This document shows, piece after piece, positions 35,631 to 50,595 of a stretch of 64,000 bases of DNA (positions are counted from its first letter, which is position 1; each line of letters opens with the position of its first letter). The notes below the pieces were generated by a model. It did no database searches and was not told the origin of the DNA. It saw nothing but the letters and a program-made list of their open reading frames with translations. Both the position numbers and the translations under genes were made by a program. Location: NCBI RefSeq assembly GCF_019402665.1, contig NZ_VSST01000079.1:1-64000 (forward strand), in the 5' to 3' direction. Source of the stretch: Bradyrhizobium canariense. GTDB taxonomy: Bacteria > Pseudomonadota > Alphaproteobacteria > Rhizobiales > Xanthobacteraceae.

Positions 35631-37370
35631 TCATCCGGCCTTGGCGACGCGGCCGTCCGCTGCGCCCGAGCGCAGGTTCTGGAAGAACTTCTCCACCTCG
35701 CGCGACAGCGTCTCCGCCGTCTCGGTCACGCTGCTCGCAGCCGTCAGCACCGAGGAGGCCGCAGTGTCGGTCTCGCCGATGGCGTCGCGGAGCGAGCTGA
35801 TGTTGGCGACGAGGGTCTCGTTGCCTTGGGCCGCCGATTGCGCGTTGGACGAGATCTCGCGCGTGGCGGCGTCCTGCTGGCCGATGGCGCCGGCGATCGC
35901 CGAGGTGACGTCGTTGATCTCGCGCACTGCGCCGCCGATCTCGCGGACGGCGTCGACCGCGTTGCGGGTGGAGGACTGGATCATCGAGACGTTTTCGCTG
36001 ATGTCGGCCGTCGCCTTCGCGGTCTGCCCCGCGAGCGCCTTGACTTCATGCGCGACGACGGCAAAGCCGCGGCCGGCATCGCCCGCGCGCGCGGCCTCGA
36101 TGGTGGCATTGAGCGCGAGCAGATTGGTCTGCTCGGCGATCGCCTGGATCAGGCTGAGCACGCCGTCGATGCGTTGCGTGGCTGCGGCCAGGCTCTCGAT
36201 CTCGGCGATCGATTTCTCGGTGCGCTGGCCGGTCTGCTCGACCGCGCCGGCGGATTGCCGCACCTGCCGGCCGATCTCCACCACCGACGCAGATAGCTCC
36301 TCGGCCGCGCCTGCCACCGCCGTAACGTTGTGCGAGGCCTGTTCGGTGGCGTTCGCCGCCGTGCCGGCGCGGCTGCTCGCGTCCGCGGTGACGCGGGTGA
36401 TGGTCTGCGCCGTCTCGCGCATGACGGAGGCGTTGTCGCTGAGGCCGCGCATGATCGCGCCGATCGCCTCGCGAAACGCGTCGACGGATTGTTCGATGTG
36501 GCGGGCGCGCTCCTCGCGCGCGGCGGAGTCCTGCGAGACCTGCGAGGCGAGATTGCGGTTTCGCTCCATCGCGTCCTGGAAGATCTGGATCGCGCGTGCC
36601 AGTGCGCCGATCTCGTCGGCCCGGTCAGAGTGGGGCACCACGACGTTCTCGGCGCCGTCAGCGACCTGCTTGATGGTCGCGGTGATGGCGGAGAGGGGGC
36701 GTGCGATCGAACGGGCGATGATGACGATGCCGATCACGACGAGGGCGAGCGCCACGCCGGCGAGGCAAGTCAGGACCAAGGACAGGGTGCGATTGGTCTC
36801 GGTCTCGTGCGCGATTTGCCTTGCACGCTCGGCATAGACCTTGGACAGCGCCTCGAGATCCTTGTTCAGCGCCGAGCGCACGGCGCGGTTGGCGTCGTTG
36901 TCGCCCCATTCGCGGCCCGCGGCCGCATTGATCTCGACGCCGCGGCGCACCAGCTCCTTGCGAAACTCGACGAACTGCTCGATGCGCTTCTTGAACGTGG
37001 CGAACTGCTCGGCATCGTCAGCCTTGACGATGGTCTCCCAGCGCTTCACGACGTCAAGGATCTGGGCGTTGAACTTGAGCAGGCCCTCGCCGTACTTCTT
37101 CACCACGGCCGGTTCAGTCGACATGTAGACGCCGCGCGATTCCATCACGACCGCATAGACCAGCGAGTTGACCCGCTCGACGTTCAGCGCGGCGGCGTTC
37201 GCGGTCTCGATCGCGGTGGTCAGCTCGGCGCCGCGGCGGCTGTTGTAGTCGGACAGCATCGCGATCGCCGCCGTGAGAAGCGCGAACAGCGCGAAGATGG
37301 CGTAGAGCTTGTTGGCAAGCGTGAAGCGGCCGGCGAGGCCGGTGGCATTCCCAGGTCGGTCAGTTGTCAT
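35631..37370 (-). CDS. Methyl-accepting chemotaxis protein with periplasmic sensor domain
   Basis: 579 aa transmembrane chemoreceptor. TM1 is near residues 22-40 ([18 protein letters not shown]). A mostly helical periplasmic domain of about 150 residues follows, with conserved [24 protein letters not shown]2 is [20 protein letters not shown], then a HAMP domain and the signalling coiled coil with [20 protein letters not shown] at the tip. The ligand is unknown. The ATG at 37370 is chosen; the frame stays open upstream without conserved sequence. It is divergent from eutB. Confidence 0.92.
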
Positions 37371-37590
37371 GGTTTTCAGGGGCCCGAATGGCCGGGAGCG
37401 GCCGGAGAGCGCGGTCGTGCAAATTATTGCAAAACTATGCAGAATGAAGATGGACGCGGCGTTAACGCCGGGTTTGGCGCCCTTCGCCCTCGGTCGAAGG
37501 AAAGGTAGATATTTCAGCGTCTTGATCTGAAGGTATAGTCTTGGGATCGTGCTGGACTCGGTCACTGGCCGACGAACCCCGGAGAGACCC

Positions 37591-38973
37591 TTGGTCTACC
37601 GCCACACCATCGACGCCACGACCTACACGTTCCCGGATTTGCGCGACCTGCTCGCCAAGGCGACGCCGCCGCGCTCCGGCGACCGCCTGGCCGGGATCGC
37701 CGCCGCCAGTGCCGAACAGATGATCGCGGCGCGGATGGCGCTGGCCGGCGTCCCGCTCGGGCAGTTCTTGCAGGAAGCCGTCATCCCCTATGAGACCGAC
37801 GAGGTCACCCGCCTCGTCATCGACAGCCACGACGCCAAGGCCTTCGCGCCGGTGGCTTCGCTGACGGTCGGCGCCTTTCGCGACTGGCTGCTATCGGACG
37901 CCGCGACACCCGAAATCTTGCGCAAGCTGGCCGGCGGCATCACCCCGGAGATGGCCGCCGCGGTCTCGAAGCTGATGCGCAACCAGGATCTGATCCTGGC
38001 GGCGCGGAAATGCGAGGTCACCACCGCTTTCCGCAACACCATCGGCCTGAAGGGCCGGATGAGCACCCGGCTCCAGCCCAACCATCCCTTCGACGACGCC
38101 AGGGGCATCACCGCCTCCATCCTCGATGGCATCCTGCTCGGCGCCGGCGATGCCTGCATCGGCATCAACCCGGCGAGCGACGACCCGGCCGTGATCGGCC
38201 AATTGCTGCGGCTGCTCGACGAGGTCATCGCGCGGCTGAAGATTCCGACACAGGGCTGCGTGCTGACCCATGTCACCACGACGCTGTCGCTGATCGGGCA
38301 GGGGGCGCCGGTCGACCTCGTGTTCCAGTCGGTCGCCGGCACTGAGGCTGCCAACCGCAGTTTTGGTATCGACCTCGCGCTTCTCAAGGAGGCGCACGAG
38401 GCCGGATTGTCGCAGAGGCGCGGCACGGTCGGGCAGAACGTGATGTATTTCGAGACCGGGCAAGGCTCGGCGCTATCGGCCAACGCCCATCACGGCGTCG
38501 ACCAGCAGACCTGCGAGGCGCGCGCCTATGCGGTGGCCCGCGCCTTTGCGCCCCTCCTGGTCAACAGCGTGGTCGGCTTCATCGGCCCGGAATATCTCTA
38601 CGACGGCAAGGAAATCATCCGGGCCGGGCTGGAGGATCACTTTTGCGGCAAGCTGCTCGGCCTGCCGCTTGGGATTGACATTTGCTACACTAATCACGCC
38701 GAGGCGGACCAGGACGACATGGACAATCTGCTGACGTTGCTCGCTGCCGCCGGCGTCACCTTCATCATGGGTGTCCCCGGCGCCGATGACGTCATGCTGA
38801 ACTATCAGTCCACGTCTTTTCACGACGCGCTCTATGTCCGCGACGTCTTCGGACTGCGCCGCGCGCCGGAATTCGACGACTGGCTGGTGCGGTCCGGCAT
38901 TGCGGGCGCCGATTTCCGTCTTGCCGGCGATGCAGGCCTGCTGCCCGATTTTGCCTCCCGGCTGATCGCGTGA
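37591..38973 (+). CDS. eutB: Ethanolamine ammonia-lyase large subunit
   Basis: 460 aa EutB. Typical stretches are [81 protein letters not shown] and [19 protein letters not shown]. With EutC and adenosylcobalamin it converts ethanolamine to acetaldehyde and ammonia. The TTG at 37591, with GGAGAG upstream, gives the usual [13 protein letters not shown] start; an in-frame start at 37549 is longer. No eut microcompartment or EutA reactivase genes are present, and eutC is separated from it by hpnP. Confidence 0.93.
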
Positions 38974-39125
38974 CGCGGCGGAAGCACCCGGCGGCCCGAG
39001 GAAACCATTGGTGCCCTCGGGAATTATGCTCATGCCACAATATTGAGAAATTCCGGCGGCAGCATTACGCTATGTGGCTGTCTGGCAATTTCCGCAGCTA
39101 AGTCGAGCGTGGCGGGGGAGCTTTG

Positions 39126-40712
39126 ATGCGAGCTGAAAGTAACGGGACGTCCCGGCGGATTCTCTGCGTGTTTCCGCGATACACATCGTCGTTCGGGACG
39201 TTCGAGCATTCCTACCCCCTGACCGATGGCGTCCGCGCCTTCATGCCGCCGCAGGGACTTTTGCTGCTTGCCGCCTATCTGCCGGAGGAGTGGCAGGTCA
39301 AATTCGTCGATGAGAACCTTCGCCGTACGACAAGGGAAGAGTTCGAATGGGCGGAGGCGGTCTTCGTCAGCGGCATGCACATCCAGCGCCAGCAGATGAA
39401 CGACATCTGCCGCCGCGCCCATGAGTTCGACCTGCCGGTCGCGCTTGGCGGTCCCTCCGTCAGCGCCTGCCCGGATTACTATCCGTCGTTCGACTATCTC
39501 CATGTCGGCGAGCTCGGCGACGCCACCAATCAGCTGCTCGAAATACTGTCGCGCGATATCTCGCGTCCCGAGACCCAGGTGGTTCTGACCACCAAAGACC
39601 GCGTGCCGATGACGGAGTTTCCGATCCCGGCCTACGAACTCGCCGACGTGAAGAAATACTTCCTCGGCAGCATCCAGTATTCCAGCGGCTGTCCGTATCA
39701 GTGCGAGTTCTGCGACATCCCCGGGCTGTACGGCCGCAATCCGCGGATCAAATCGCCCGAGCAGATCATCGCCGAACTCGACCGCCTGCGCGAATGCGGC
39801 ATGACCGACACGGTCTATTTCGTCGACGACAATTTCATCGGCAACCGCAAGGCGGCGCTGGACCTCCTGCCGCATCTGATCGAATGGCAGAAGAGGACCG
39901 GCTACGTGGTGCGGCTCGCCTGCGAGGCGACGCTCAACATCGCCAAGCGGCCGGAAATCCTCGAGAAGATGCGCGAGGCCTATTTCGTCACCATCTTCTG
40001 CGGCATCGAGACGCCCGATCCCGATGCGCTGAAGGCGATGCACAAGGACCACAACATGATGGTCCCGATCCTCGAGGGCGTGCAAACCATCAACTCCTAC
40101 GGCATGGAGGTCGTGTCCGGCATCATCATGGGGCTCGACACCGATAAGCCGAACACTTCGGAGGCGCTGCTCGCCTTCGTCGAGGACTCCCGGATTCCGC
40201 TGCTCACGATCAACCTGCTTCAGGCGCTGCCGAAGACGCCGCTATGGGACCGTCTGGAGCGCGAGGGACGCCTGGTCGAGGACGACGGCCGCGATTCCAA
40301 TGTCAACTTCCTGTTGCCCTACGACGACGTCGTCGCATCCTGGAAACACGCCATGGCCGTCGCCTACGAGCCCGAGAAGGTCTACGCGCGCTTCCAGTAT
40401 CAATGCGACCACGTTTACGTGCATCGCCTGAAGATGCCGACGCCGGACGAGATGAAGACCTGGCCCAACATCAGGCGCGGCCTCGTCATGCTGCGAAACA
40501 TCTTCTGGAAGGTCGGCGTGCTCGGCGACTACAAGCGCGTGTTCTGGAAGTTCGCGCTGGGCCGCATCAAGCGCGGCGACCTCGAAGGTCTGATCGGCTG
40601 CACTCTGATCGCGCACCATCTCATCACCTTTGCGCGGGCGGCCTCGACCGGCCAGCAGAACGCCTCGAACTATTCGATCCGGCTACGCGAGGCCTCCGTC
40701 CCCGCCGAATGA
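39126..40712 (+). CDS. hpnP: Hopanoid C-2 methyltransferase, B12-binding radical SAM
   Basis: 528 aa. The N-terminal ~150 residues form a B12-binding-type domain (GLLLLAAYLPEEWQVKFVDE ... FVSGMHIQRQQMNDICRRA). The radical-SAM core has C189-x3-C193-x2-C196 in SSGCPYQCEFCDIPGLYGR. The length and style match HpnP, which methylates hopanoids at C-2. The gene lies between eutB (152 nt upstream) and eutC (6 nt downstream), so it is likely translated from a transcript shared with eutC. In Rhodopseudomonas hpnP is under EcfG stress control; no exact EcfG box was found here. The ATG at 39126 follows GGGGGAG. Confidence 0.9.
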   Translation: MRAESNGTSRRILCVFPRYTSSFGTFEHSYPLTDGVRAFMPPQGLLLLAAYLPEEWQVKFVDENLRRTTREEFEWAEAVFVSGMHIQRQQMNDICRRAHEFDLPVALGGPSVSACPDYYPSFDYLHVGELGDATNQLLEILSRDISRPETQVVLTTKDRVPMTEFPIPAYELADVKKYFLGSIQYSSGCPYQCEFCDIPGLYGRNPRIKSPEQIIAELDRLRECGMTDTVYFVDDNFIGNRKAALDLLPHLIEWQKRTGYVVRLACEATLNIAKRPEILEKMREAYFVTIFCGIETPDPDALKAMHKDHNMMVPILEGVQTINSYGMEVVSGIIMGLDTDKPNTSEALLAFVEDSRIPLLTINLLQALPKTPLWDRLEREGRLVEDDGRDSNVNFLLPYDDVVASWKHAMAVAYEPEKVYARFQYQCDHVYVHRLKMPTPDEMKTWPNIRRGLVMLRNIFWKVGVLGDYKRVFWKFALGRIKRGDLEGLIGCTLIAHHLITFARAASTGQQNASNYSIRLREASVPAE

Positions 40713-40718
40713 CACAAC

Positions 40719-41504
40719 ATGTCTGATCCGGCCATCCCGCGTCGTCCGACCCTCGATCTGCGGTCGCTCACGCCTGCGCGCGTCGCGCTCGGGCGCAGCG
40801 GCGCGAGCCTGCCGACGCGGGCACTGCTCGATTTCACGTTGGACCATGCCCGCGCCCGCGATGCCGTGCATGCCGTGTTCGATGCGCCGCGGCTGGTCGC
40901 GGATCTCCGCGCGCTCGGCCTCGTCGTCACCGAGGCGAACAGCCGGGCGGTCGACCGCAGGGACTATTTGCGGCGGCCCGATCTGGGCAGACGGCTGGAT
41001 GCCGGATCAGTCGAGGCTCTGGCGCGGAGCGCCTCGGAGCCGTGCCAACTCGCGGTCGTGATTGGCGATGGGCTGTCGGCTGCGGCGGTCCACGCCCATG
41101 CGGCCGCGCTGGTGATTCGCCTGCTGCCGTTGCTCGCAGCCGGCGATGGTGTCGCGATCGGCCATGTCGTGGTCGCCTCAGGCGCGCGTGTCGCGCTCGG
41201 CGACGAGATCGGCGCCATTCTCGGCGCGCGCATGGTCGCGACGCTGATCGGCGAGCGGCCGGGCGTGTCGGCGCCCGACAGTCTCGGCGCCTATCTGACT
41301 TTCGCCCCGAAGCCGGGCCGCACCGATGCCGAGCGCAATTGCGTGTCGAACATCCACAAGGCCGGGTTGAGCTATGACGAGGCTGCTTTCAAGATCGCCT
41401 GGCTGGTCCGCGAGGGGCTCGCGCGGGAGGTGACCGGTGTGGCGCTGAAGGACGACAGCGCAGACCGCGCGCCGCGTCGAATTGGCACGGCTTTGCCCGA
41501 ATGA
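40719..41504 (+). CDS. eutC: Ethanolamine ammonia-lyase small subunit
   Basis: 261 aa EutC. Characteristic motifs are [36 protein letters not shown], and the C-terminal [20 protein letters not shown] with [20 protein letters not shown]. It forms the heterodimeric enzyme with EutB and helps bind adenosylcobalamin. The start is 6 nt after the hpnP stop. Confidence 0.93.
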
Positions 41505-41710
41505 AGGGCATTAAGGCAAAATCGCCACATCTTGATCGATTCGGCCACACTCCGCCTGCTTGCGAGAAGGGCGATTGACCTGCTAAACCCCTCGCGGCGA
41601 TTTTCTGCGCATTTTCAAAGGGCAAGCCTCCCATTGGTATGGCATTTTCAAGCCGTTCGCGGGGCGCGACAAGCTCACAGACCCGAGCCGATTTAGGAAC
41701 TGGACAAGGC

Positions 41711-44074
41711 ATGCTCGAAAAGCACAGCGAGAGTGAGGTTCATGTCGACAAGGTCGAGCAGGGACCTGCGTCCTCGATCGCCTTCGGGCTGGAGCGCATC
41801 GGGCTGTTCGCCGTCCGGGCGCCCATCGTCTCCTGCATCGTCCTGCTCGTCCTGATCGTCGGCGCCGTGTTCGGCATCCATCGGATCAAGATCGACGATT
41901 CGCTGTCGCAGCTGTTCCGGTCCAACACGCCGGAATTCCGCCAGTACGAAGCGGTGACTAAAAAGTTCCCGGCCGAAGAATTCGACGTCCTCGTCGTAGT
42001 CGAGGGCAAGACCCTGCTGGCGCGGAACAACCTCGAGAAGCTGCGCGACTTCGTCACCGACATGCAGCTGGTCGAGGGTACGCGCGGACTGGTCTCGCTG
42101 TTCTCCGCGCGTCAGGCGCCGGCGCCGGGCAAGCTTCCCGCCGCGCTGTTCCCGCCCGAGCTGCCCGAGGGCGCGGCCTATGACAAGTTCATCGAGGGCG
42201 TCAAAGCCAACGAGATCATCCGCGGCAAGTTGTTGTCCGAGGACGGCACGCTGGCGCTGATCGTGCTTTCGCTCGATCCGGAGGTGGTCGCCTCCAACAA
42301 GCTGACCAAGACCGTCGCCGACATCCGCGCGCTGATGAAGGAAGACCTCGGCGACACCGGCCTCAACGTGCAGCTTTCCGGCGTGCCGGTGATGCAGCTC
42401 GAGATCCGCAACGCGGTCGAGCGCGACGGGCTCACCTACAACATCCTCGGCATTCTCGCCGGCTGTGTCATCGCCATCATCTTCTTCCGCAAGATCTCGT
42501 TCATGGTGGCGGCGGCGTTCCCGCCGATGATTGCGATCCTGCTGGCGCTCGGCGCGCTCGGCTGGGCCAATTTCAACCTCAACATGTTCCTGAACGTGAT
42601 GACGCCGCTCATCATGGTCATCAGCTTCTCGGACTCGATGCAGCTCACCTTCGCCGCGCGCGACCGGCTGATCGCGGGCCAGGACAAGTTCACCGCGTTC
42701 AAGAACGCGGTGCTGGTGGTGGGACCGGCCTGCGTGCTGACGCACGGCACCGCCGGCATTTCCTTCATCGCGCTCCAGTTCTCCGACTCCGATCTGATCC
42801 GCAAGTTTGGCGAGGCGGGTCTCGCCGCCACCATCATCGCGCTGGTCGCGGTGTTGTCGCTGGTGCCGGTGTTCGGCGTGCTGCTGGTGCGCAACGAGAA
42901 GGTCTTTGCGACCAAGTTCCAGAGCGCGGATGCCGGCGTGCAGGCGCTGCGTAATTTCTGCTACTGGATCGCGGTGCGCATGGTGGGCCGTCCTGGCCTG
43001 TTCAGCCTGATCGCGGTGGTGTTCGTGGCGGGCCTCGGCGTCATCTACGCAAATCTGGAGCCGCGCTACCGGCTCGCCGACCAGGTGCCGGACAAGCGCC
43101 AGGCGGTCGCCGCCAGCGACCGGCTCGACGCCAAGCTCACCGGCGCCAACCCGGTCAACGTTCTGATCCAGTTCCCCAAGGGTGAATCGCTCTATTCGCC
43201 GGAGACGCTGCAGACCATCGCGGATGTGCACGCGACGGTGGAGAAGGCAGCCGGTGTCGGCAATGTCTGGTCGGTCGAGACCCTGCGCCGCTGGCTTGCG
43301 GACAAGGCCGGCAGCGCCGACGTCGCGACGCTGAAAGAATATGTCAGCGTCATTCCGGAGCATCTGGTGCGCCGGTTCATCGATGCCGAGCAGGACGCCG
43401 TCGTGGTCGCAGGTCGCGTGCCGGACAAGGATTCCAGCCAGCTCCTTCCGATCGTCGACAAGCTCGATACCGAGCTCGACGCCGTGCGCAAGAAGCATCC
43501 CGGCTATGAAGTGGCGGTCACGGGTCTTGCCGCGATTGCCGCGCGCAACTCGGCCGGCATGATCGAGAAGCTCAACCGCGGGCTGACCGTCGAATTCGCG
43601 CTGGTCGCGATCTTCATCGGCCTGGCCTTCCGTTCCTGGGTGGTGATGTTCGCCTGCATCCTGCCGGGCATCTTCCCCGTTGTGATGTCGGGAACGGTGC
43701 TGTGGGCGATGGGTGAGGGACTGCAATTCGCCAGCGTCGTGGCTCTGACCGTTTCGTTCGGCCTCGGCTTAAGCGCCACCATCCATTTCCTCAACCGCCT
43801 CAGGCTCGAGAGCAAGCCGGGCGTCGGCTCGGCGCTCGCGGTGGAGCGCGCCACCGTGCTGGTCGGCCCGGCCTTGATCCTGACCACGCTGGTGCTGGCC
43901 TGCGGTCTCGTCGTCACGGTGTTCTCCGACCTGCCGTCGCTACGGCTGTTCGGCTGGCTCAGCGCCTTCTCGATGGTGATGGCGCTCGTCGCCGACCTCT
44001 TCATCCTGCGGCCGACGGCGATGTGGTTGATCAATCTGCACGCCAAGCTTCAGGGCGACAAGCCGGCGATCTGA
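41711..44074 (+). CDS. RND-superfamily (MMPL/HpnN-like) membrane transporter
   Basis: 787 aa with the two-fold RND layout. TM1 is near residue 35 (APIVSCIVLLVLIVGAVFGI), then a large extracytoplasmic domain, helices 2-6 (GILAGCVIAIIFFRKISFMV ... LVAVLSLVPVFGVLLVR). The pattern repeats from about residue 420 (second TM1, LIAVVFVAGLGVIYA) to the end. It resembles HpnN/MMPL lipid exporters rather than tripartite drug pumps. It follows eutC by about 200 nt in the same direction and lies between eutC and the hpnCDE genes. Its cargo is unknown; an envelope lipid is plausible from context. The ATG at 41711 gives a short cytoplasmic lead-in; longer in-frame starts look unlikely. Confidence 0.87.
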   Translation: MLEKHSESEVHVDKVEQGPASSIAFGLERIGLFAVRAPIVSCIVLLVLIVGAVFGIHRIKIDDSLSQLFRSNTPEFRQYEAVTKKFPAEEFDVLVVVEGKTLLARNNLEKLRDFVTDMQLVEGTRGLVSLFSARQAPAPGKLPAALFPPELPEGAAYDKFIEGVKANEIIRGKLLSEDGTLALIVLSLDPEVVASNKLTKTVADIRALMKEDLGDTGLNVQLSGVPVMQLEIRNAVERDGLTYNILGILAGCVIAIIFFRKISFMVAAAFPPMIAILLALGALGWANFNLNMFLNVMTPLIMVISFSDSMQLTFAARDRLIAGQDKFTAFKNAVLVVGPACVLTHGTAGISFIALQFSDSDLIRKFGEAGLAATIIALVAVLSLVPVFGVLLVRNEKVFATKFQSADAGVQALRNFCYWIAVRMVGRPGLFSLIAVVFVAGLGVIYANLEPRYRLADQVPDKRQAVAASDRLDAKLTGANPVNVLIQFPKGESLYSPETLQTIADVHATVEKAAGVGNVWSVETLRRWLADKAGSADVATLKEYVSVIPEHLVRRFIDAEQDAVVVAGRVPDKDSSQLLPIVDKLDTELDAVRKKHPGYEVAVTGLAAIAARNSAGMIEKLNRGLTVEFALVAIFIGLAFRSWVVMFACILPGIFPVVMSGTVLWAMGEGLQFASVVALTVSFGLGLSATIHFLNRLRLESKPGVGSALAVERATVLVGPALILTTLVLACGLVVTVFSDLPSLRLFGWLSAFSMVMALVADLFILRPTAMWLINLHAKLQGDKPAI

Positions 44075-44140
44075 ACGGCTTCGTTCATCAGACACTCGAA
44101 TCGGCGCGGTCCGGGCGATTGCGCCGCGTCTCCCGAAAAC

Positions 44141-44175
44141 AACAAAGCCCCGGTTCGCGAGAACCGGGGCTTGTT
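44141..44175. terminator. Bidirectional terminator between RND gene and secreted-protein gene
   Basis: GCCCCGGTTC (44147-44156), loop GCGA, GAACCGGGGC, flanked by AACAA on the left and TTGTT on the right, gives a strong hairpin with A/T flanks on both sides. It lies between convergent stop codons and can serve both genes. Confidence 0.85.
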
Positions 44176-44197
44176 GCTTTCGAAGCGGTAAGAGCCG

Positions 44198-44695
44198 TCA
44201 GCCCTTCGTCATCGTGATGTTGACGCCGCGAATCTCGCCCTTGGATGAGATCTGCACCGTTTGCTTGGTGCCGTTGGTGCGCAGCGACAAATTGGCGGCA
44301 AAGCCGTTGGCCTCGACGAACACCTCGATCTGGCCGCCACCGGCGGTGCCTTGCAGATTGCCGAAGATGTTGCGGTTGGTCTCGCTCCAATTGCCGGAGA
44401 TCCGCTCGCCCTGGCTGGTCACGTCGCTGGTGAGGTCGAACTTGTAGCTGTCGGACGCGCAGTGCAACGCCTGCTTGAGGCTGAGACCGGTGCCGGCAAC
44501 TTTGTAGTCGGCCTTGCAACGGATGCGCTCGGTGGAGCCGTCGGACAGCGACACCGTACCCGTGCCGGTCCATGCGCCCTCGAAACCTGCAAACGGTCCG
44601 GACGACTGAGCCTGACTTGCCGAAACCGAGAACAGCAGCACAGCGCCGATGCCGGCCGCCTTGATTGCCAGTTCAGATCGCCCAAAAAAATTCAT
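44198..44695 (-). CDS. Secreted protein of unknown function
   Basis: 165 aa. N-terminal signal peptide (SELAIKAAGIGAVLLFSVSASQA), then a beta-rich mature protein (GPFAGFEGAWTGTGTVSLSD, ISGNWSETNRNIFGNLQGTA) with one cysteine pair (RIRCKADYK and ALHCASDSYK). It resembles uncharacterised alphaproteobacterial periplasmic proteins with a lipocalin-like look, but no family can be named with certainty. The ATG at 44695 is preferred to a TTG two codons earlier. Confidence 0.75.
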   Translation of the reverse strand: MNFFGRSELAIKAAGIGAVLLFSVSASQAQSSGPFAGFEGAWTGTGTVSLSDGSTERIRCKADYKVAGTGLSLKQALHCASDSYKFDLTSDVTSQGERISGNWSETNRNIFGNLQGTAGGGQIEVFVEANGFAANLSLRTNGTKQTVQISSKGEIRGVNITMTKG

Positions 44696-45156
44696 CTTCA
44701 AAATATCCCGTTTTGGAACGACGTCCGCTTGTCACCAAGGACGTCTCGCCACATCGAAGGTTTAGTGTTCCGAGCCTGTGTCAGGTTCAATGGCCGGCCG
44801 CCCACATGTCGGCATCGCGAAGCGCACTTGCCATGATTGGCCTCCGGATTCTCTGCGTTTCGGCATGTTTCTGGGGCCCATGGCGGGATGTAGAGATGCA
44901 GCTCTGCAACAGGTGCGCAGCAAAACGCGGCGTACCCGAATTATGACGTAGTATCAGTCTCTTACATTTGTCACAGAAGGCGCAGGGAAGACCTGATCTG
45001 GTGGACGTGGCGCCAATTTGGCCGCATTTGCCAGTGCTTGTGCCTTCTCCGAGGCCGCTACTCCCGCGGCGACTTGCCATCAGAACAATCCGTTCCGGTC
45101 GTCGCCCTGTGCTGTCCGGGATTGGTGCGATTCTGCCGTCAGAATGAAGGAATACA
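44696..45156. other. Intergenic region without a recognisable gene
   Basis: About 460 nt between divergent secreted-protein genes. Only short frames without family resemblance occur. It presumably carries the promoters for both genes; none was clear enough to mark. Confidence 0.5.
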
Positions 45157-45390
45157 ATGCGTAAGCTTCTCGTCGCTCTCACCTTGCTGTCGGCCTCCCT
45201 CTCGACCGCAGCGTTCGCCCAGCAAGGGCGCGGCACGGACGCCGAGCAGAAGGCCTGCTCGCGCGATGTGCAGAAGCTCTGCCGTCCGGTCATCGACCAG
45301 GGCGATTTCACCATCCTGGCCTGCCTCAAGGAGAACCGGGCCAAGATTTCGCAGGCCTGCGATCAGGTCCTGAAGAACCACAACCAGTAA
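45157..45390 (+). CDS. Small secreted cysteine-rich-repeat protein
   Basis: 77 aa. Signal peptide about 1-21 (KLLVALTLLSASLSTAAFAQ) and a mature part with four cysteines in the repeated pattern ACSRDVQKLC and ACLKENRAKISQAC. This matches the short cysteine-rich repeat proteins found in many Rhizobiales, whose role is not known. A strong terminator follows directly, so it is monocistronic, just ahead of the hpn operon. Confidence 0.82.
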   Translation: MRKLLVALTLLSASLSTAAFAQQGRGTDAEQKACSRDVQKLCRPVIDQGDFTILACLKENRAKISQACDQVLKNHNQ

Positions 45391-45408
45391 GCTCGGCCAC
45401 TGGCCCAC

Positions 45409-45435
45409 AAAAGGCGGCCTCCGGGGCCGCCTTTT
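45409..45435 (+). terminator. Rho-independent terminator after the small cysteine-repeat gene
   Basis: AAAAGGCGGCC (45409-45419), loop TCCGG, GGCCGCCTTTT (45425-45435). A perfect 11-bp stem ending in T residues, 19 nt after the stop codon. Confidence 0.9.
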
Positions 45436-45584
45436 CGGGCCTGATCCGCAAAGGGCAGCCATCGAGAGACAGGATTGGTTTTGCGGCCGTATTCCCCTAT
45501 ATGGGGGCCGCGGCGGCATCGCCCGCACGGGCTAGCGCGAGCGAAAAAGCCCTTCCTGTCCAAACGATTGTAGACCAGCCCTCG

Positions 45585-46469
45585 ATGACCTCTGCGAGCG
45601 AATTGCGATCCGGCAAGGGTGAGCGCGACGAGAATTTTCCCGTCGCGTCCTGGATCATTCATCCGCGTCATCGCGCGCTGATCCTGGCGTATTACAATTT
45701 CGTCCGCACCGCCGACGACATCGCCGACCACGCCACGCTGCCGCCGGACGAGAAGCTGGCTTATCTCGACCTGCTCGAGGCGGAATTGCTCGGCAAAGGC
45801 GACACCCAGGCCGAGGCCGTCAGCCTGCGGCACGCACTGGCCGAACGCGGTATGGCGCCGCGCCACGCGCTCGACGTGCTCATCGCGTTCCGCATGGACG
45901 TGACCAAGTTGCGCTACGAGAATTGGGACGAGGTCATCCATTATTGCCGCTACTCGGCGATGCCGGTCGGCCGCTTCATGCTCGACGTCCATGGTGAGAG
46001 CACCTCGACCTGGGCCGCGTCCGATGCGCTCTGTGCAGCGCTGCAGATCAACAACCATCTCCAGGATTGCGGCAAGGATTTCCGCGAGCTCAACCGCGTC
46101 TATCTGCCGCGCGATGCGCTGGCTGCGAGTGGCGCCTCGGTCGAGCAGCTCGGACTGGCGCAATCCCCACCGGCGATGCTGGCCTGCCTTCAGGCTCTCG
46201 CCGTGCGCAACGAAGCGCTGCTCGACGAGGGCAGGTCGCTAGCTGCGGAGATCAGGGATTTCCGCCTCGGCATCGAGGTCTCGGTGATCCAGGCTTATGC
46301 CGACCGCATTGTGCGCCTGTTGAAGGTGCGCGATCCCCTGCGCGAGCGCGTGCACCTGAACAAGCTCGAGCTCCTCACCTTCAGCCTCGCCGGCATGATC
46401 GGCGAAGTCGGCCGCCGCGCGGTCGGACGCAAGGCCATTTCAAGACCGGGGACTGCACATGACGCTTGA
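45585..46469 (+). CDS. hpnC: Squalene synthase family HpnC (hydroxysqualene synthase)
   Basis: 294 aa trans-isoprenyl diphosphate synthase fold. The first aspartate-rich motif is in YNFVRTADDIADHATLPP and the second in LQDCGKDFRELNRVYLPRDA. In the HpnCDE route HpnD makes presqualene diphosphate, HpnC converts it to hydroxysqualene, and HpnE reduces that to squalene. The ATG at 45585 gives the usual SASELRSGKGERDENFPVAS start; an upstream ATG at 45501 adds 28 non-conserved residues. It overlaps hpnD by 11 nt and heads the hpn operon. Confidence 0.92.
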   Translation: MTSASELRSGKGERDENFPVASWIIHPRHRALILAYYNFVRTADDIADHATLPPDEKLAYLDLLEAELLGKGDTQAEAVSLRHALAERGMAPRHALDVLIAFRMDVTKLRYENWDEVIHYCRYSAMPVGRFMLDVHGESTSTWAASDALCAALQINNHLQDCGKDFRELNRVYLPRDALAASGASVEQLGLAQSPPAMLACLQALAVRNEALLDEGRSLAAEIRDFRLGIEVSVIQAYADRIVRLLKVRDPLRERVHLNKLELLTFSLAGMIGEVGRRAVGRKAISRPGTAHDA

Positions 46470-47298
46470 GGCGACCTCGCCCGGCGCCAATTATGGCTCG
46501 ACCGCATCCGGCAGTTCGTTTTACGCCGCGATGCGCATCCTGCCGCATGACCAGCGCGAAGCGATGTTCCAGATCTACAGCTTCTGCCGCCAGGTCGACG
46601 ACATCGCCGATTCCGACGGACCGCGCGACGAGCGGCTCGCCGCCCTTCAGGCGTGGCGCAACGACATCGATGCGCTCTACCAGGGCAATCCGCCGCCACG
46701 GCTGAAGGACTACGTCGCCTCGGTGAAGACCTTCGGCCTCAAGCGCGAGGATTTCCTCGCGATCGTCGACGGCATGGAGATGGACGTGCCGCAGGACATC
46801 CGCGCGCCCGACATGGCGACGCTGGATCTCTACTGCGATCGCGTCGCGAGTGCCGTGGGGCGGCTGTCGGTCCGCGTCTTCGGCCTGCCGGAAGAAGACG
46901 GCATCGAGCTCGCCCATCATCTCGGCCGCGCGCTCCAGCTCACCAACATCCTGCGCGACATCGACGAGGACGCGGGCCTCGGCCGGCTCTATCTGCCGCG
47001 CGAAGCGCTGCTGCATGCCGGCATCACTTCCAACGATCCGGACCGCGTGATCGTCGAGCGCGCGCTGCCGAAGGTCTGCCTGCCGCTGGCGCAGCGCGCA
47101 AAGGTGTATTTCGAGAAGTCGGACGAGATCATGAACCGCAATCGGCGCCGCGCGGTGCGCGCGCCCCGGATGATGTCGAAATACTATCATGCCATTCTGG
47201 ATCTTCTGATCGCGCGCGGGTTCAACGCGCCGCGTGAGCCGGTGCGTGTGTCGAAGATCACACGCATCGCCATCCTGCTCCGATACGCTCTCATCTGA
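46459..47298 (+). CDS. hpnD: Presqualene diphosphate synthase
   Basis: 279 aa. Aspartate motifs are visible as YSFCRQVDDIADSDGPRDER and LTNILRDIDEDAGLGRLYLP. It condenses two farnesyl diphosphates to presqualene diphosphate. It overlaps hpnC by 11 nt, and its TGA shares one base with the hpnE ATG, so the three genes are tightly coupled. Confidence 0.94.
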   Translation: MTLEATSPGANYGSTASGSSFYAAMRILPHDQREAMFQIYSFCRQVDDIADSDGPRDERLAALQAWRNDIDALYQGNPPPRLKDYVASVKTFGLKREDFLAIVDGMEMDVPQDIRAPDMATLDLYCDRVASAVGRLSVRVFGLPEEDGIELAHHLGRALQLTNILRDIDEDAGLGRLYLPREALLHAGITSNDPDRVIVERALPKVCLPLAQRAKVYFEKSDEIMNRNRRRAVRAPRMMSKYYHAILDLLIARGFNAPREPVRVSKITRIAILLRYALI

Positions 47299-48551
47299 TG
47301 CAAAAAACAGCTCACATCATTGGCGCTGGAATTTCCGGCCTCTCCGCCGCCGTGCGGCTTGCCAATGCCGGCTTCAAGGTCGCCGTGCACGAGGCGACCC
47401 AGCAGGCCGGCGGCCGCTGCCGTTCTTATTTCGACGGCGCCACCAATCTCACTATCGACAACGGCAACCATCTGCTGCTGTCCGGCAACAGCCATGCGCG
47501 CGCCTACGCGCGCTCGATCGGCACTGAAGCGGGCCTCGTCGGTCCGGAGCGCGCGCAGTTTCCCTTTGTCGACCTCACGACCGGGCAGCGCTGGCAGATT
47601 GACCTCGGCGACGGCCGGCTCCCGACCTGGGTGCTCGACGAGAGCCGCCGCGTCCCCGACACCGGGTTGACCGATTACCTGAAGCTGGCGCCGCTGATCT
47701 GGGCATCGGAAGAGACGCTGGTCGGCAAGTCCATTCCCTGCGAGGGCGTGCTCTATCAGCGCCTGGTGCAGCCGCTGCTGCTGGCGGCGCTCAACGTCGA
47801 TCCACCCGAAGGCTCAGCTGGGCTTGCCGGCGCGATCGTGCGCGAGACGCTGCTCGCCGGCGGGCAGGCCTGCCGTCCCCTGATCGCGCGCGACGGGCTC
47901 AGCGCGGTGCTGATCGAGCCTGCCGTGACGTTCCTGCAGGAGCGCGGGCACAGCGTTCAGCTCGGCCATGAGCTGCGCTCGTTTGCGACCCATGACGGCA
48001 AGGTCGGCGCGCTGAATTTCGGCGGCGAAGATGTGATCCAGATCGGCGAGGGCGACGTCGTCGTGATGGCGGTACCGCCGCGCGCTGCCTCCAACCTGCT
48101 GCCGGGCCTGAAGACGCCGACCGAATTCCGCGCCATCGTGAATGCGCATTTCCGCGTTGAGCCGCCAGCGGGATCGGCTCCGATCCTCGGCGTGATCGGC
48201 GGCGTCGTGGAATGGCTGTTTGCGTTCCCGAACCGGCTGTCCGTCACCATCAGCAACGGCGACCGTCTGGTCGAGATGCCGCGCGAGGAACTCGCGCAGG
48301 CGATCTGGAACGACGTGTGCAAGGCGGGCGGTGTGTCCGGCGAGCTGCCCCCTTGGCAGATCGTGCGCGAGCGCCGTGCCACATTCGCGGCGACGCCGGC
48401 GCAGAATGCCCTGCGTCCAGGGCCGGTCACTGCGCTGAAAAACCTGTTTCTTGCAGGCGATTGGACTGCTACGGGATTGCCTGCAACCATCGAGGGATCG
48501 GTCCGATCCGGTGATCGCGCCGCCGATCTGGTTCTGGCCGCCAAGGGATAG
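47298..48551 (+). CDS. hpnE: Hydroxysqualene dehydroxylase
   Basis: 417 aa flavin amine-oxidase-fold protein. The N-terminal FAD motif is IIGAGISGLSAAVRLANAG and the C-terminal FAD contact is NLFLAGDWTATGLPATIEGS. It removes the hydroxyl group of hydroxysqualene to give squalene. The ATG overlaps the hpnD stop (TGATG). Confidence 0.93.
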   Translation: MQKTAHIIGAGISGLSAAVRLANAGFKVAVHEATQQAGGRCRSYFDGATNLTIDNGNHLLLSGNSHARAYARSIGTEAGLVGPERAQFPFVDLTTGQRWQIDLGDGRLPTWVLDESRRVPDTGLTDYLKLAPLIWASEETLVGKSIPCEGVLYQRLVQPLLLAALNVDPPEGSAGLAGAIVRETLLAGGQACRPLIARDGLSAVLIEPAVTFLQERGHSVQLGHELRSFATHDGKVGALNFGGEDVIQIGEGDVVVMAVPPRAASNLLPGLKTPTEFRAIVNAHFRVEPPAGSAPILGVIGGVVEWLFAFPNRLSVTISNGDRLVEMPREELAQAIWNDVCKAGGVSGELPPWQIVRERRATFAATPAQNALRPGPVTALKNLFLAGDWTATGLPATIEGSVRSGDRAADLVLAAKG

Positions 48552-48627
48552 TGACAGGCGGCCCTGACGGGTATTTGTCCCGGTCAATTTCGGCCAATTC
48601 AATCGACTATCGGAGCAATCGAGCGAG

Positions 48628-50595
48628 ATGGATTCCGTGAACGCGACCAGCCGCGAAGCCCAAGAATTCGGGAACTTGGAATCGAGCATTGCGTCGGCCA
48701 CCGAAGGGGTCCTCGGCTTCCAGCAATCCGACGGGCATTGGGTGTTCGAGCTCGAGGCCGATTGCACGATTCCGGCCGAATACGTGCTGCTGCGCCATTA
48801 TCTCGCCGAGCCGGTCGATGCCGTGCTCGAAGCCAAGATCGCCAATTATCTTCGCCGCGTTCAGGGCGTCCATGGCGGCTGGCCGCTGGTGCATGATGGC
48901 GAGTTCGACATGAGCGCCAGCGTGAAGGCGTATTTCGCGTTGAAGATGATCGGGGATTCCATCGACGCGCCGCACATGGTGCGTGCGCGCGAGGCGATCC
49001 ATTCCCGCGGCGGCGCCATTCACAGCAACGTCTTCACGCGCTTCATGCTTGCGATGTTTGGCGTCGTGACCTGGCGCGCGGTACCGGTGCTGCCGATCGA
49101 GATCGTGCTGCTGCCGTTCTGGTCGCCGTTCCACATCAACAAGATCTCCTACTGGGCACGCACCACCATGGTGCCGCTGATGGTCATCGCCGCGCTGAAG
49201 CCACGGGCGAAGAATCCCAAGGGTGTCGGCATCGACGAGCTGTTCCTGCAGGATCCGCGCTCGATTGGCATGACGGCCAAGGCGCCGCACCAGAGCATGG
49301 CCTGGTTCGTGCTGTTCCGCGCGCTCGACGGCATTTTGCGCGTGGTCGAGCCGATGTTTCCCAAGAGCCTGCGCAAGCGCGCGATCGATGCCGCGCTCGC
49401 CTTCACCGAGGAGCGGTTGAACGGCGAGGACGGCATGGGCGCGATCTATCCGCCGATGGCCAACATCGTCATGATGTACGACGCGCTCGGCAAGGATGAG
49501 ACCTATCCGCCGCGCGCGATCACGCGCCGGGGTATCGACAAGCTGCTCGTGATCAAGGACGACGAGGCCTATTGCCAGCCCTGCGTCTCGCCGGTGTGGG
49601 ACACGACGCTGACCGCCCACGCGCTGCTCGAAGCCGGCGGTGACAGAGCGGTGCCCGCGGCCAAGCAGGGTCTCGACTGGCTGATCCCGAAGCAGGAGCT
49701 CGAGGTGAAGGGCGACTGGGCGGTGAAGCGGCCCGACGTGCGCCCGGGCGGCTGGGCCTTCCAGTACAACAACGCCCATTATCCCGATCTCGACGACACC
49801 GCGGTGGTGGTGATGTCGATGGACCGGATGCGCCGGGAGCACGGTGCGACCGGCTATGACGCCGCGATTGAGCGTGCCCGGGAGTGGATCGAGGGCATGC
49901 AGAGCGACGACGGCGGCTGGGCCGCCTTCGACGTCAACAACCTCGAATATTATCTGAACAACATCCCGTTCTCCGACCATGGCGCGCTGCTCGACCCGCC
50001 GACCGAGGACGTCACCGCGCGCTGCATCTCGATGCTGGCCCAGCTCGGCGAGACCGCGAACACCAGCAAGCATGTCGCCGAGGGCGTCGCCTACCTCCGC
50101 AAGACCCAGCACCCGGAAGGGTCCTGGTACGGCCGCTGGGGCATGAATTTCATCTATGGAACCTGGTCGGTGCTGTGCGCCCTCAACATGGCCGGCGTCC
50201 GCCATGACGACCCCATGATCCGGAAAGCCGCCGGCTGGCTGGCCTCGATCCAGAATCAGGACGGCGGCTGGGGCGAGGATGCCGTCAGCTACCGGCTGGA
50301 CTACCGAGGCTGGGAAGCCGCCCCCTCGACCGCATCGCAAACGGCATGGGCCTTGCTTGCCTTGATGGCTGCTGGCGAGGTTGATCACCCGGCCGTCGCC
50401 CGCGGGGTGGAGTACCTGATTGCAACACAGAACGAAAAAGGACTGTGGGACGAACAGCGGTACACCGCCACAGGCTTTCCCCGTGTATTCTATCTACGGT
50501 ACCATGGTTACCCGAAGTTCTTCCCGCTGTGGGCGTTGGCGCGGTATCGGAACTTGCGGAACACCAACAGCAGGGTGGTAGGGGTCGGAATGTGA
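48628..50595 (+). CDS. shc: Squalene-hopene cyclase
   Basis: 655 aa, the usual length of class II triterpene cyclases. The protonating motif D387-L-D-D390 lies in YPDLDDTAVV. Several QW repeats are visible (GMQSDDGGWAAFD, THPEGSWYGRWG-type QHPEGSWYGRWG, IQNQDGGWGED). It cyclises squalene to hopene and diplopterol at the inner membrane. It follows hpnE by 76 nt and its TGA overlaps the GTG of hpnG. Also called hpnF. Confidence 0.96.
   Translation: MDSVNATSREAQEFGNLESSIASATEGVLGFQQSDGHWVFELEADCTIPAEYVLLRHYLAEPVDAVLEAKIANYLRRVQGVHGGWPLVHDGEFDMSASVKAYFALKMIGDSIDAPHMVRAREAIHSRGGAIHSNVFTRFMLAMFGVVTWRAVPVLPIEIVLLPFWSPFHINKISYWARTTMVPLMVIAALKPRAKNPKGVGIDELFLQDPRSIGMTAKAPHQSMAWFVLFRALDGILRVVEPMFPKSLRKRAIDAALAFTEERLNGEDGMGAIYPPMANIVMMYDALGKDETYPPRAITRRGIDKLLVIKDDEAYCQPCVSPVWDTTLTAHALLEAGGDRAVPAAKQGLDWLIPKQELEVKGDWAVKRPDVRPGGWAFQYNNAHYPDLDDTAVVVMSMDRMRREHGATGYDAAIERAREWIEGMQSDDGGWAAFDVNNLEYYLNNIPFSDHGALLDPPTEDVTARCISMLAQLGETANTSKHVAEGVAYLRKTQHPEGSWYGRWGMNFIYGTWSVLCALNMAGVRHDDPMIRKAAGWLASIQNQDGGWGEDAVSYRLDYRGWEAAPSTASQTAWALLALMAAGEVDHPAVARGVEYLIATQNEKGLWDEQRYTATGFPRVFYLRYHGYPKFFPLWALARYRNLRNTNSRVVGVGM

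Follow-up and report, generated by a model that had tools for sequence, protein, structure and literature searches.

The gene order considered here lies in a 64,000-nt stretch of Bradyrhizobium canariense DNA (assembly GCF_019402665.1, contig NZ_VSST01000079.1, positions 1 to 64,000; family Xanthobacteraceae), referred to below as the window, in which hpnP, the gene for a hopanoid C-2 methylase, stands between eutB and eutC, the genes for the large and small subunits of ethanolamine ammonia-lyase. All three genes are on the plus strand, in the order eutB (37591-38973; 460 aa, with a TTG start after GGAGAG), hpnP (39126-40712; 528 aa, ATG start) and eutC (40719-41504), with gaps of 152 nt and 6 nt. 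The original prediction, made from the letters of the window, had placed hpnP between the two subunit genes and 6 nt ahead of eutC, and both the coordinates and the profile matches agree with it. EutB scores 700 bits against NCBIfam model NF011649 (cut-off 554) and 708 bits against Pfam EutB, and EutC scores 306 bits against NF003971 (cut-off 230). Both proteins exceed curated cut-offs and align over nearly their full length with solved ethanolamine ammonia-lyases. On these matches eutB and eutC are ethanolamine ammonia-lyase subunit genes, with a predicted catalytic activity. The best match in the genome to the EutA reactivase was partial and scored 22.3 bits, below the cut-off of 27, whilst the best match to the dedicated ethanolamine permease model TIGR00908 reached 79.6 bits against a cut-off of 381.75. 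Many genomes that encode EutBC lack EutA and a dedicated permease.

The product of the middle gene has the make-up of a B12-binding radical SAM protein. Pfam domains Radical_SAM and DUF4070 are above cut-off, the B12-binding domain scores 29.7 bits, slightly below its cut-off of 32.1, and a CPYQCEFC (CxxxCxxC) motif is present at residue 189. No NCBIfam model scored above its own cut-off for this protein, which is named HpnP on the strength of orthology. The protein is 76% identical to a Rhodopseudomonas palustris XCP protein (L145), and HpnP-like paralogues are 34-41% identical; by this comparison it is the ortholog of Rhodopseudomonas HpnP, apart from the paralogues. EutBC is an established adenosylcobalamin enzyme. 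For HpnP, B12 dependence is stated in PMC10697835, and the earlier claim that both enzymes use cobalamin is supported.

Distribution of the eutB-hpnP-eutC order

The occurrence of the split order was examined in a sample, not exhaustive, of 198 genomes of the family, in which hpnP proper was defined by at least 52% identity and matches of 34-41% were excluded as paralogues. hpnP proper is present in 98 of the 198 genomes and eutB likewise in 98; two of the hpnP genes (genomes G162 and G194) are fragmentary, and these genomes are included in the genome counts and absent from the locus set. The order eutB-hpnP-eutC was found at 38 of 81 family hpnP loci (80 fetched plus the window), including L022, which lies at a contig edge, and L054, in which a broken eutB lies 1667 nt before hpnP. 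It was found at none of 15 more distant family loci, giving 38/96 overall; two of these 15 contigs are only ~4 kb long, so that nothing past their ends is visible. A second set was drawn from a search with an alignment that had a Rhodopseudomonas-type protein at its head; it holds named loci, the 80 top-ranked of 508 matches, and several of its genomes also belong to the family set. The split order is present at 69 of these 80 loci, the 11 exceptions being four Nitrobacter, three SCN18 Hyphomicrobiales and four Bradyrhizobium (B. aeschynomenes, BTAi1, SSBR45G and S69). Recurrence on this scale, in both the family and the named loci, rules out a chance juxtaposition in a single genome.

Across the class hpnP is rare: of 387 genomes searched, 7 have it, including two from the genus of the window. 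No eut genes were found at any of five hpnP loci of other families in stretches of 12-20 kb. The expectation that the neighbourhood recurs in hpnP-bearing alphaproteobacteria was therefore correct as to recurrence but too broad in scope, since the arrangement belongs to one clade within one family. No paper was found that links ethanolamine or its lyase, in a relevant sense, to hpnP, hopanoids or 2-methylhopan-, and none containing the Bradyrhizobium locus tags searched for was among the 40 of 248 matches listed. A paper on B. diazoefficiens hopanoid mutants (PMC11005386) mentions neither eutB nor ethanolamine. No published description of the split arrangement was found in a search outside which most subscription papers lie, and it may well be noted elsewhere.

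Probable history of the insertion

In what follows, groups are given as codes, of which g1 is Bradyrhizobium, g28 Rhodopseudomonas and g20 Nitrobacter. The 38 EutB proteins from split loci form one clade with 100/100 support, separate from the EutB proteins of 40 contiguous eutB-eutC pairs of the same family, and the split EutC proteins likewise form one clade, with a Shimodaira-Hasegawa-like approximate likelihood ratio test (SH-aLRT) value of 100, apart from the contiguous pairs. The latter comprise the same lyase subunits in the same order and strand, but lack an intervening hpnP, the two genes being -16 to 83 nt apart in 40/40 cases; contiguity is thus likely to be ancestral, with hpnP as the insert. 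Because split EutB and split EutC each form a single clade, the entry of hpnP between eutB and eutC seems to have been a single event, in an ancestor shared by Bradyrhizobium, Rhodopseudomonas, Nitrobacter and their relatives; on the same two clades, repeated independent insertion is rejected.

Six changes of the split label are needed on the HpnP tree, five of which well-supported branches make unavoidable, and nine on a FastTree tree of 167 rows that includes the named and distant loci. Since EutB indicates one gain, the remaining changes are read as losses of eutB and eutC, and loss rather than gain would explain the clade loci that lack eutBC. The clade includes 69 genomes with hpnP. The split order is present in 38 of them; another 12 carry eutBC at other places only, with an EutB that sits outside the split clade; and the remaining 19, of which 16 are at least 90% complete, have no EutB match. 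Conversely, no EutB of at least 79% identity was found in the sampled family genomes without hpnP. No EutB match was found in the four Nitrobacter genomes, including N. vulgaris Ab1 at E <= 1e-20. At the hpnP loci of Bradyrhizobium BTAi1 (L186), B. aeschynomenes (L182) and Bradyrhizobium SSBR45G (L210) eutBC is absent, and each of these genomes has two other EutB matches, of 64-67% identity, away from that locus. Loci without eutBC, such as those of Nitrobacter, BTAi1 and the SCN18 Hyphomicrobiales, resemble the window in having the same RND transporter gene after hpnP, and hpnC beyond it on contigs long enough to include it, but differ in the absence of eutB and eutC from the locus.

Direct traces of decay are present at two loci. 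In Bradyrhizobium S69 (L217), whose genome has no EutB match, pieces of eutB lie just upstream of hpnP (best E 1.3e-4), beside an intact copy (25/27) of a 28-nt upstream box described below; in L054, as noted, eutB is broken. Remnants at E <= 0.01 were found at only one of 42 loci without eutBC (L217) and at none of the other 41, so that most losses would have been traceless. This scarcity is what might be expected had the split block instead been acquired repeatedly by horizontal transfer into lineages that already carried hpnP, as opposed to one gain and many losses, and the mixture of split and unsplit loci within g20 (2/9) and g25 (1/10) points the same way. However, the deeper order of the split EutB clade broadly matches that of the HpnP tree, with g17 and g25 deep and then the rest, and the distances for HpnP, EutB, EutC and the RND protein are correlated (0.82-0.89 across 33 loci), which fits a block inherited together. 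With the decay of eutB in L217 and L054 set beside these data, repeated transfer is considered an unlikely account.

Control of hpnP and its relation to the lyase genes

The spacing of the genes differs on either side of hpnP. Across 106 loci (L054 excluded) the eutB-hpnP gap has a median of 157 nt and a range of 85-273 nt, and the hpnP-eutC gap a median of 6 nt, not exceeding 80 nt in 103 of the 106. The wider gap was searched for the sequence recognised by the general stress sigma factor EcfG, which is reported to raise hpnP expression in R. palustris TIE-1 (PMC4676935). A strict box was defined as GGAAC-N15..19-GTT, published forms being GGAAC-N16-CGTT (PMC3892343) and GGAAC-N17-20-GTT (PMC6599016). 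Upstream of hpnP, in regions cut at the end of eutB in split loci, the strict box is present at 21/38 split and 29/43 unsplit loci. It is almost missing upstream of eutB (1/37 split, 0/40 contiguous), of eutC (0/38 and 0/34) and of the RND gene (0/34 split, 1/19 unsplit). By group, in a 320-nt region, it was found in g28 (9/9 split), g26 (8/10), g20 (9/9), g40 (8/8) and, outside the clade, g12 (3/5), and at no locus in g1 (11 loci), g17 (2), g46 (1), g10 (5), g43 (3), g35 (1) or g3 (1). Compared with the EcfG-controlled hpnP of TIE-1 (PMC4676935 and PMC4337730), hpnP is orthologous and all nine split Rhodopseudomonas loci examined carry the box in the eutB-hpnP gap; in the genus of the window, by contrast, the box is degenerate.

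In the window this degenerate box, GGAAA-N18-ATT, is at 39000-39025 on the plus strand, positioned as in relatives, and is a candidate hpnP promoter. A variant pattern (GCAAC...GTT or GGAAA...ATT) is found just before the 28-nt box at 62/71 loci, compared with 19/2000 random windows; the pattern was picked after the alignment had been viewed, and four of the 75 loci considered were dropped because they lack the 28-nt box. The latter is a conserved element of ~28 nt (CCACAAT-N-TTGA type), at 39035-39062 on the plus strand in the window. At a score of at least 18 of 27 it is present in 11/11 g1, 10/10 g26, 7/9 g20, 2/2 g6, 1/1 g46 and, without eutBC, 8/8 g40 loci, and, with Rhodopseudomonas and L204 set aside, in 60/61 named split loci, whereas 3/1000 random 320-nt windows reach this score. 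It is often trailed ~10 nt later by a block of CGTG-N-TTA type, and is a candidate factor-binding element. A scan for sigma-70 sites across 37000-42000 returned none. Because both elements also precede hpnP where eutB is absent (g20 and g40), they belong with hpnP as opposed to eutB, and hpnP appears to have its own upstream control region, in which these elements could act as working promoters.

The original prediction had further suggested that the arrangement may couple 2-methylhopanoid production to ethanolamine or to B12 supply. According to the first idea, the position of hpnP within eutBC is maintained because it lets ethanolamine from phospholipid turnover induce 2-methylation through a single transcript. 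The gene order is in keeping with this, in that, where eutBC is retained, the eutB-hpnP link is intact at 106/107 loci and the hpnP-eutC link at 104/104, although these counts are biased by selection of loci that hold all three genes and by the relatedness of the rows. The tight hpnP-eutC spacing is also in keeping, as are terminator-like sites, which are no more frequent than in shuffled sequences in the eutB-hpnP gap (5/106, 5.4 expected) or the hpnP-eutC gap (1/106, 1.0 expected); consequently, read-through from eutB could still raise hpnP on ethanolamine. However, 31 of the 69 clade genomes have hpnP without a split eutBC, N. vulgaris has no EutB match at all, although Nitrobacter is reported to make abundant 2-methylhopanoid when given B12 (introduction of PMC12583986, citing Elling 2020), and strict EcfG boxes precede hpnP but almost never eutB. 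The first two observations rule out an obligatory dependence of hpnP on the lyase, and selection for ethanolamine-induced methylation is, in our estimation, improbable.

The second idea, that a shared need for cobalamin, and control by its supply, keeps the genes side by side, is less probable again. Both enzymes bind B12 (Pfam; PMC10697835). However, no Rfam family reached its gathering threshold in 30000-60000, so no cobalamin riboswitch was found and a B12 riboswitch is ruled out in that interval; the addition of B12 did not increase 2-methylation in R. palustris TIE-1 (PMC4676935); and the scanned neighbours yielded no third gene related to B12. Obligate coupling, whether via ethanolamine or B12, is thus disfavoured by these comparisons, and the link between eutBC and hpnP looks organisational rather than required.

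The explanation that we consider probable, from comparative sequence data, is that hpnP entered eutB-eutC once, is governed by its own control region, and has stayed while eutBC was later lost or replaced. Insertion into a tightly packed eutB-eutC pair would have taken place in the common ancestor, with hpnP either bringing or later acquiring a control region that comprises the sigma-EcfG stress box and, in most groups, the 28-nt box. Situated directly behind hpnP, eutC would be transcribed from the hpnP promoter and by read-through from eutB, and perhaps hpnP is itself also transcribed by such read-through. A transcript shared by hpnP and eutC would account for tolerance of the insertion, because eutC could be transcribed by either route, and, together with independent transcription of hpnP, for the survival of hpnP where eutBC has gone. 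The shared operon would then be a by-product of insertion history, and 2-methylation would need neither the lyase nor ethanolamine, leaving the lyase genes free to be lost or replaced with hpnP kept.

Several observations weigh against this explanation. On the historical side, in addition to the scarcity of eutB remnants, support is weak (84/17) for the branch joining the 69 rows of the clade. Presence of the two genes is not clearly associated across the 198 genomes, of which 55 have both hpnP and eutB, 43 hpnP only, 43 eutB only and 57 neither (p = 0.09); when the split genomes are removed the trend is reversed (p = 0.07), neither value being corrected for kinship. With regard to the control region, the strict EcfG box is missing from the window gap and from all 11 loci of its genus, and is present at 1/61 named split loci once Rhodopseudomonas and L204 are set aside. 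Only the post hoc variant remains in the window's genus, and this is weaker evidence. The 28-nt box is present in only 2/9 split g28 loci and 0/2 g17 loci, and is missing from three Bradyrhizobium loci without eutBC (L182, L186 and L210). Neither element was found in the two split g17 loci, nor in the unsplit loci of g10 (5), g43 (3), g35 (1) and g3 (1). Finally, the eutB-hpnP-eutC links are somewhat more stable than those between eutC and the RND gene (96/101) or between the RND gene and the next gene (75/89), which could mean selection; the link from that next gene to hpnC is intact in 29/29 cases and that from the chemoreceptor gene to eutB in 61/65. Stability of the order would be compatible with a shared transcript and is no proof of selection. 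Were selection at work, the position of hpnP might have been favoured for a dual input, in which read-through from eutB during ethanolamine use raises 2-methylation, and general stress acts on hpnP and eutC through the internal promoter; we regard such a two-input switch as unlikely.

2-Methylhopanes serve widely as molecular fossils, and the trigger of hpnP expression bears on the record that they carry. The present comparison parts two ideas, in that methylation does not seem to be tied to the lyase, and the apparent stress-type control region of hpnP is also present without eutBC. Genus-specific control of hpnP is predicted, in that the EcfG box matches the consensus in Rhodopseudomonas and Nitrobacter but is degenerate in Bradyrhizobium. 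Additionally, deletion of hpnP may reduce the expression of eutC, a potential confounder in the analysis of mutants.

Neighbouring genes and paralogues

Divergent from eutB, on the minus strand, is a gene for a methyl-accepting chemotaxis protein (35631-37565; MCPsignal and HAMP above cut-off), the true start of which may be near 37370. A similar protein, encoded in the same orientation, adjoins eutB at 59/102 split loci, and the window protein may be an ethanolamine receptor.

Downstream of eutC, on the plus strand, is an RND/MMPL-family transporter gene (41711-44074), the product of which scores below the HpnN cut-offs. This gene is retained downstream and, in many clade loci, including some without eutBC, lies between eutC (or hpnP) and hpnC; it is nameless at present and a candidate hopanoid-locus gene. 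A small conserved reading frame (44198-44701, minus strand), with no NCBIfam match at 1e-20, separates it from hpnC (45501-46469; TIGR03464 305 bits, cut-off 250), which is followed on the plus strand by hpnD (46459-47298), hpnE (47298-48551) and shc (48628-50595), each above its NCBIfam cut-off. Hence hpnP is ~8 kb from shc in the window (39126-50595), and hpnC is on the same strand as hpnP and within 10.5 kb downstream at 53/81 hpnP loci.

As regards the paralogues, locus L002 (G000:C84:206157-207653) encodes an HpnP-like protein that is 38% identical and adjoins an apparent aldehyde-oxidase-type pair and a putative MFS transporter, as read from the reading frames. HpnP-like matches at 34-41% identity occur in many genomes of the family.

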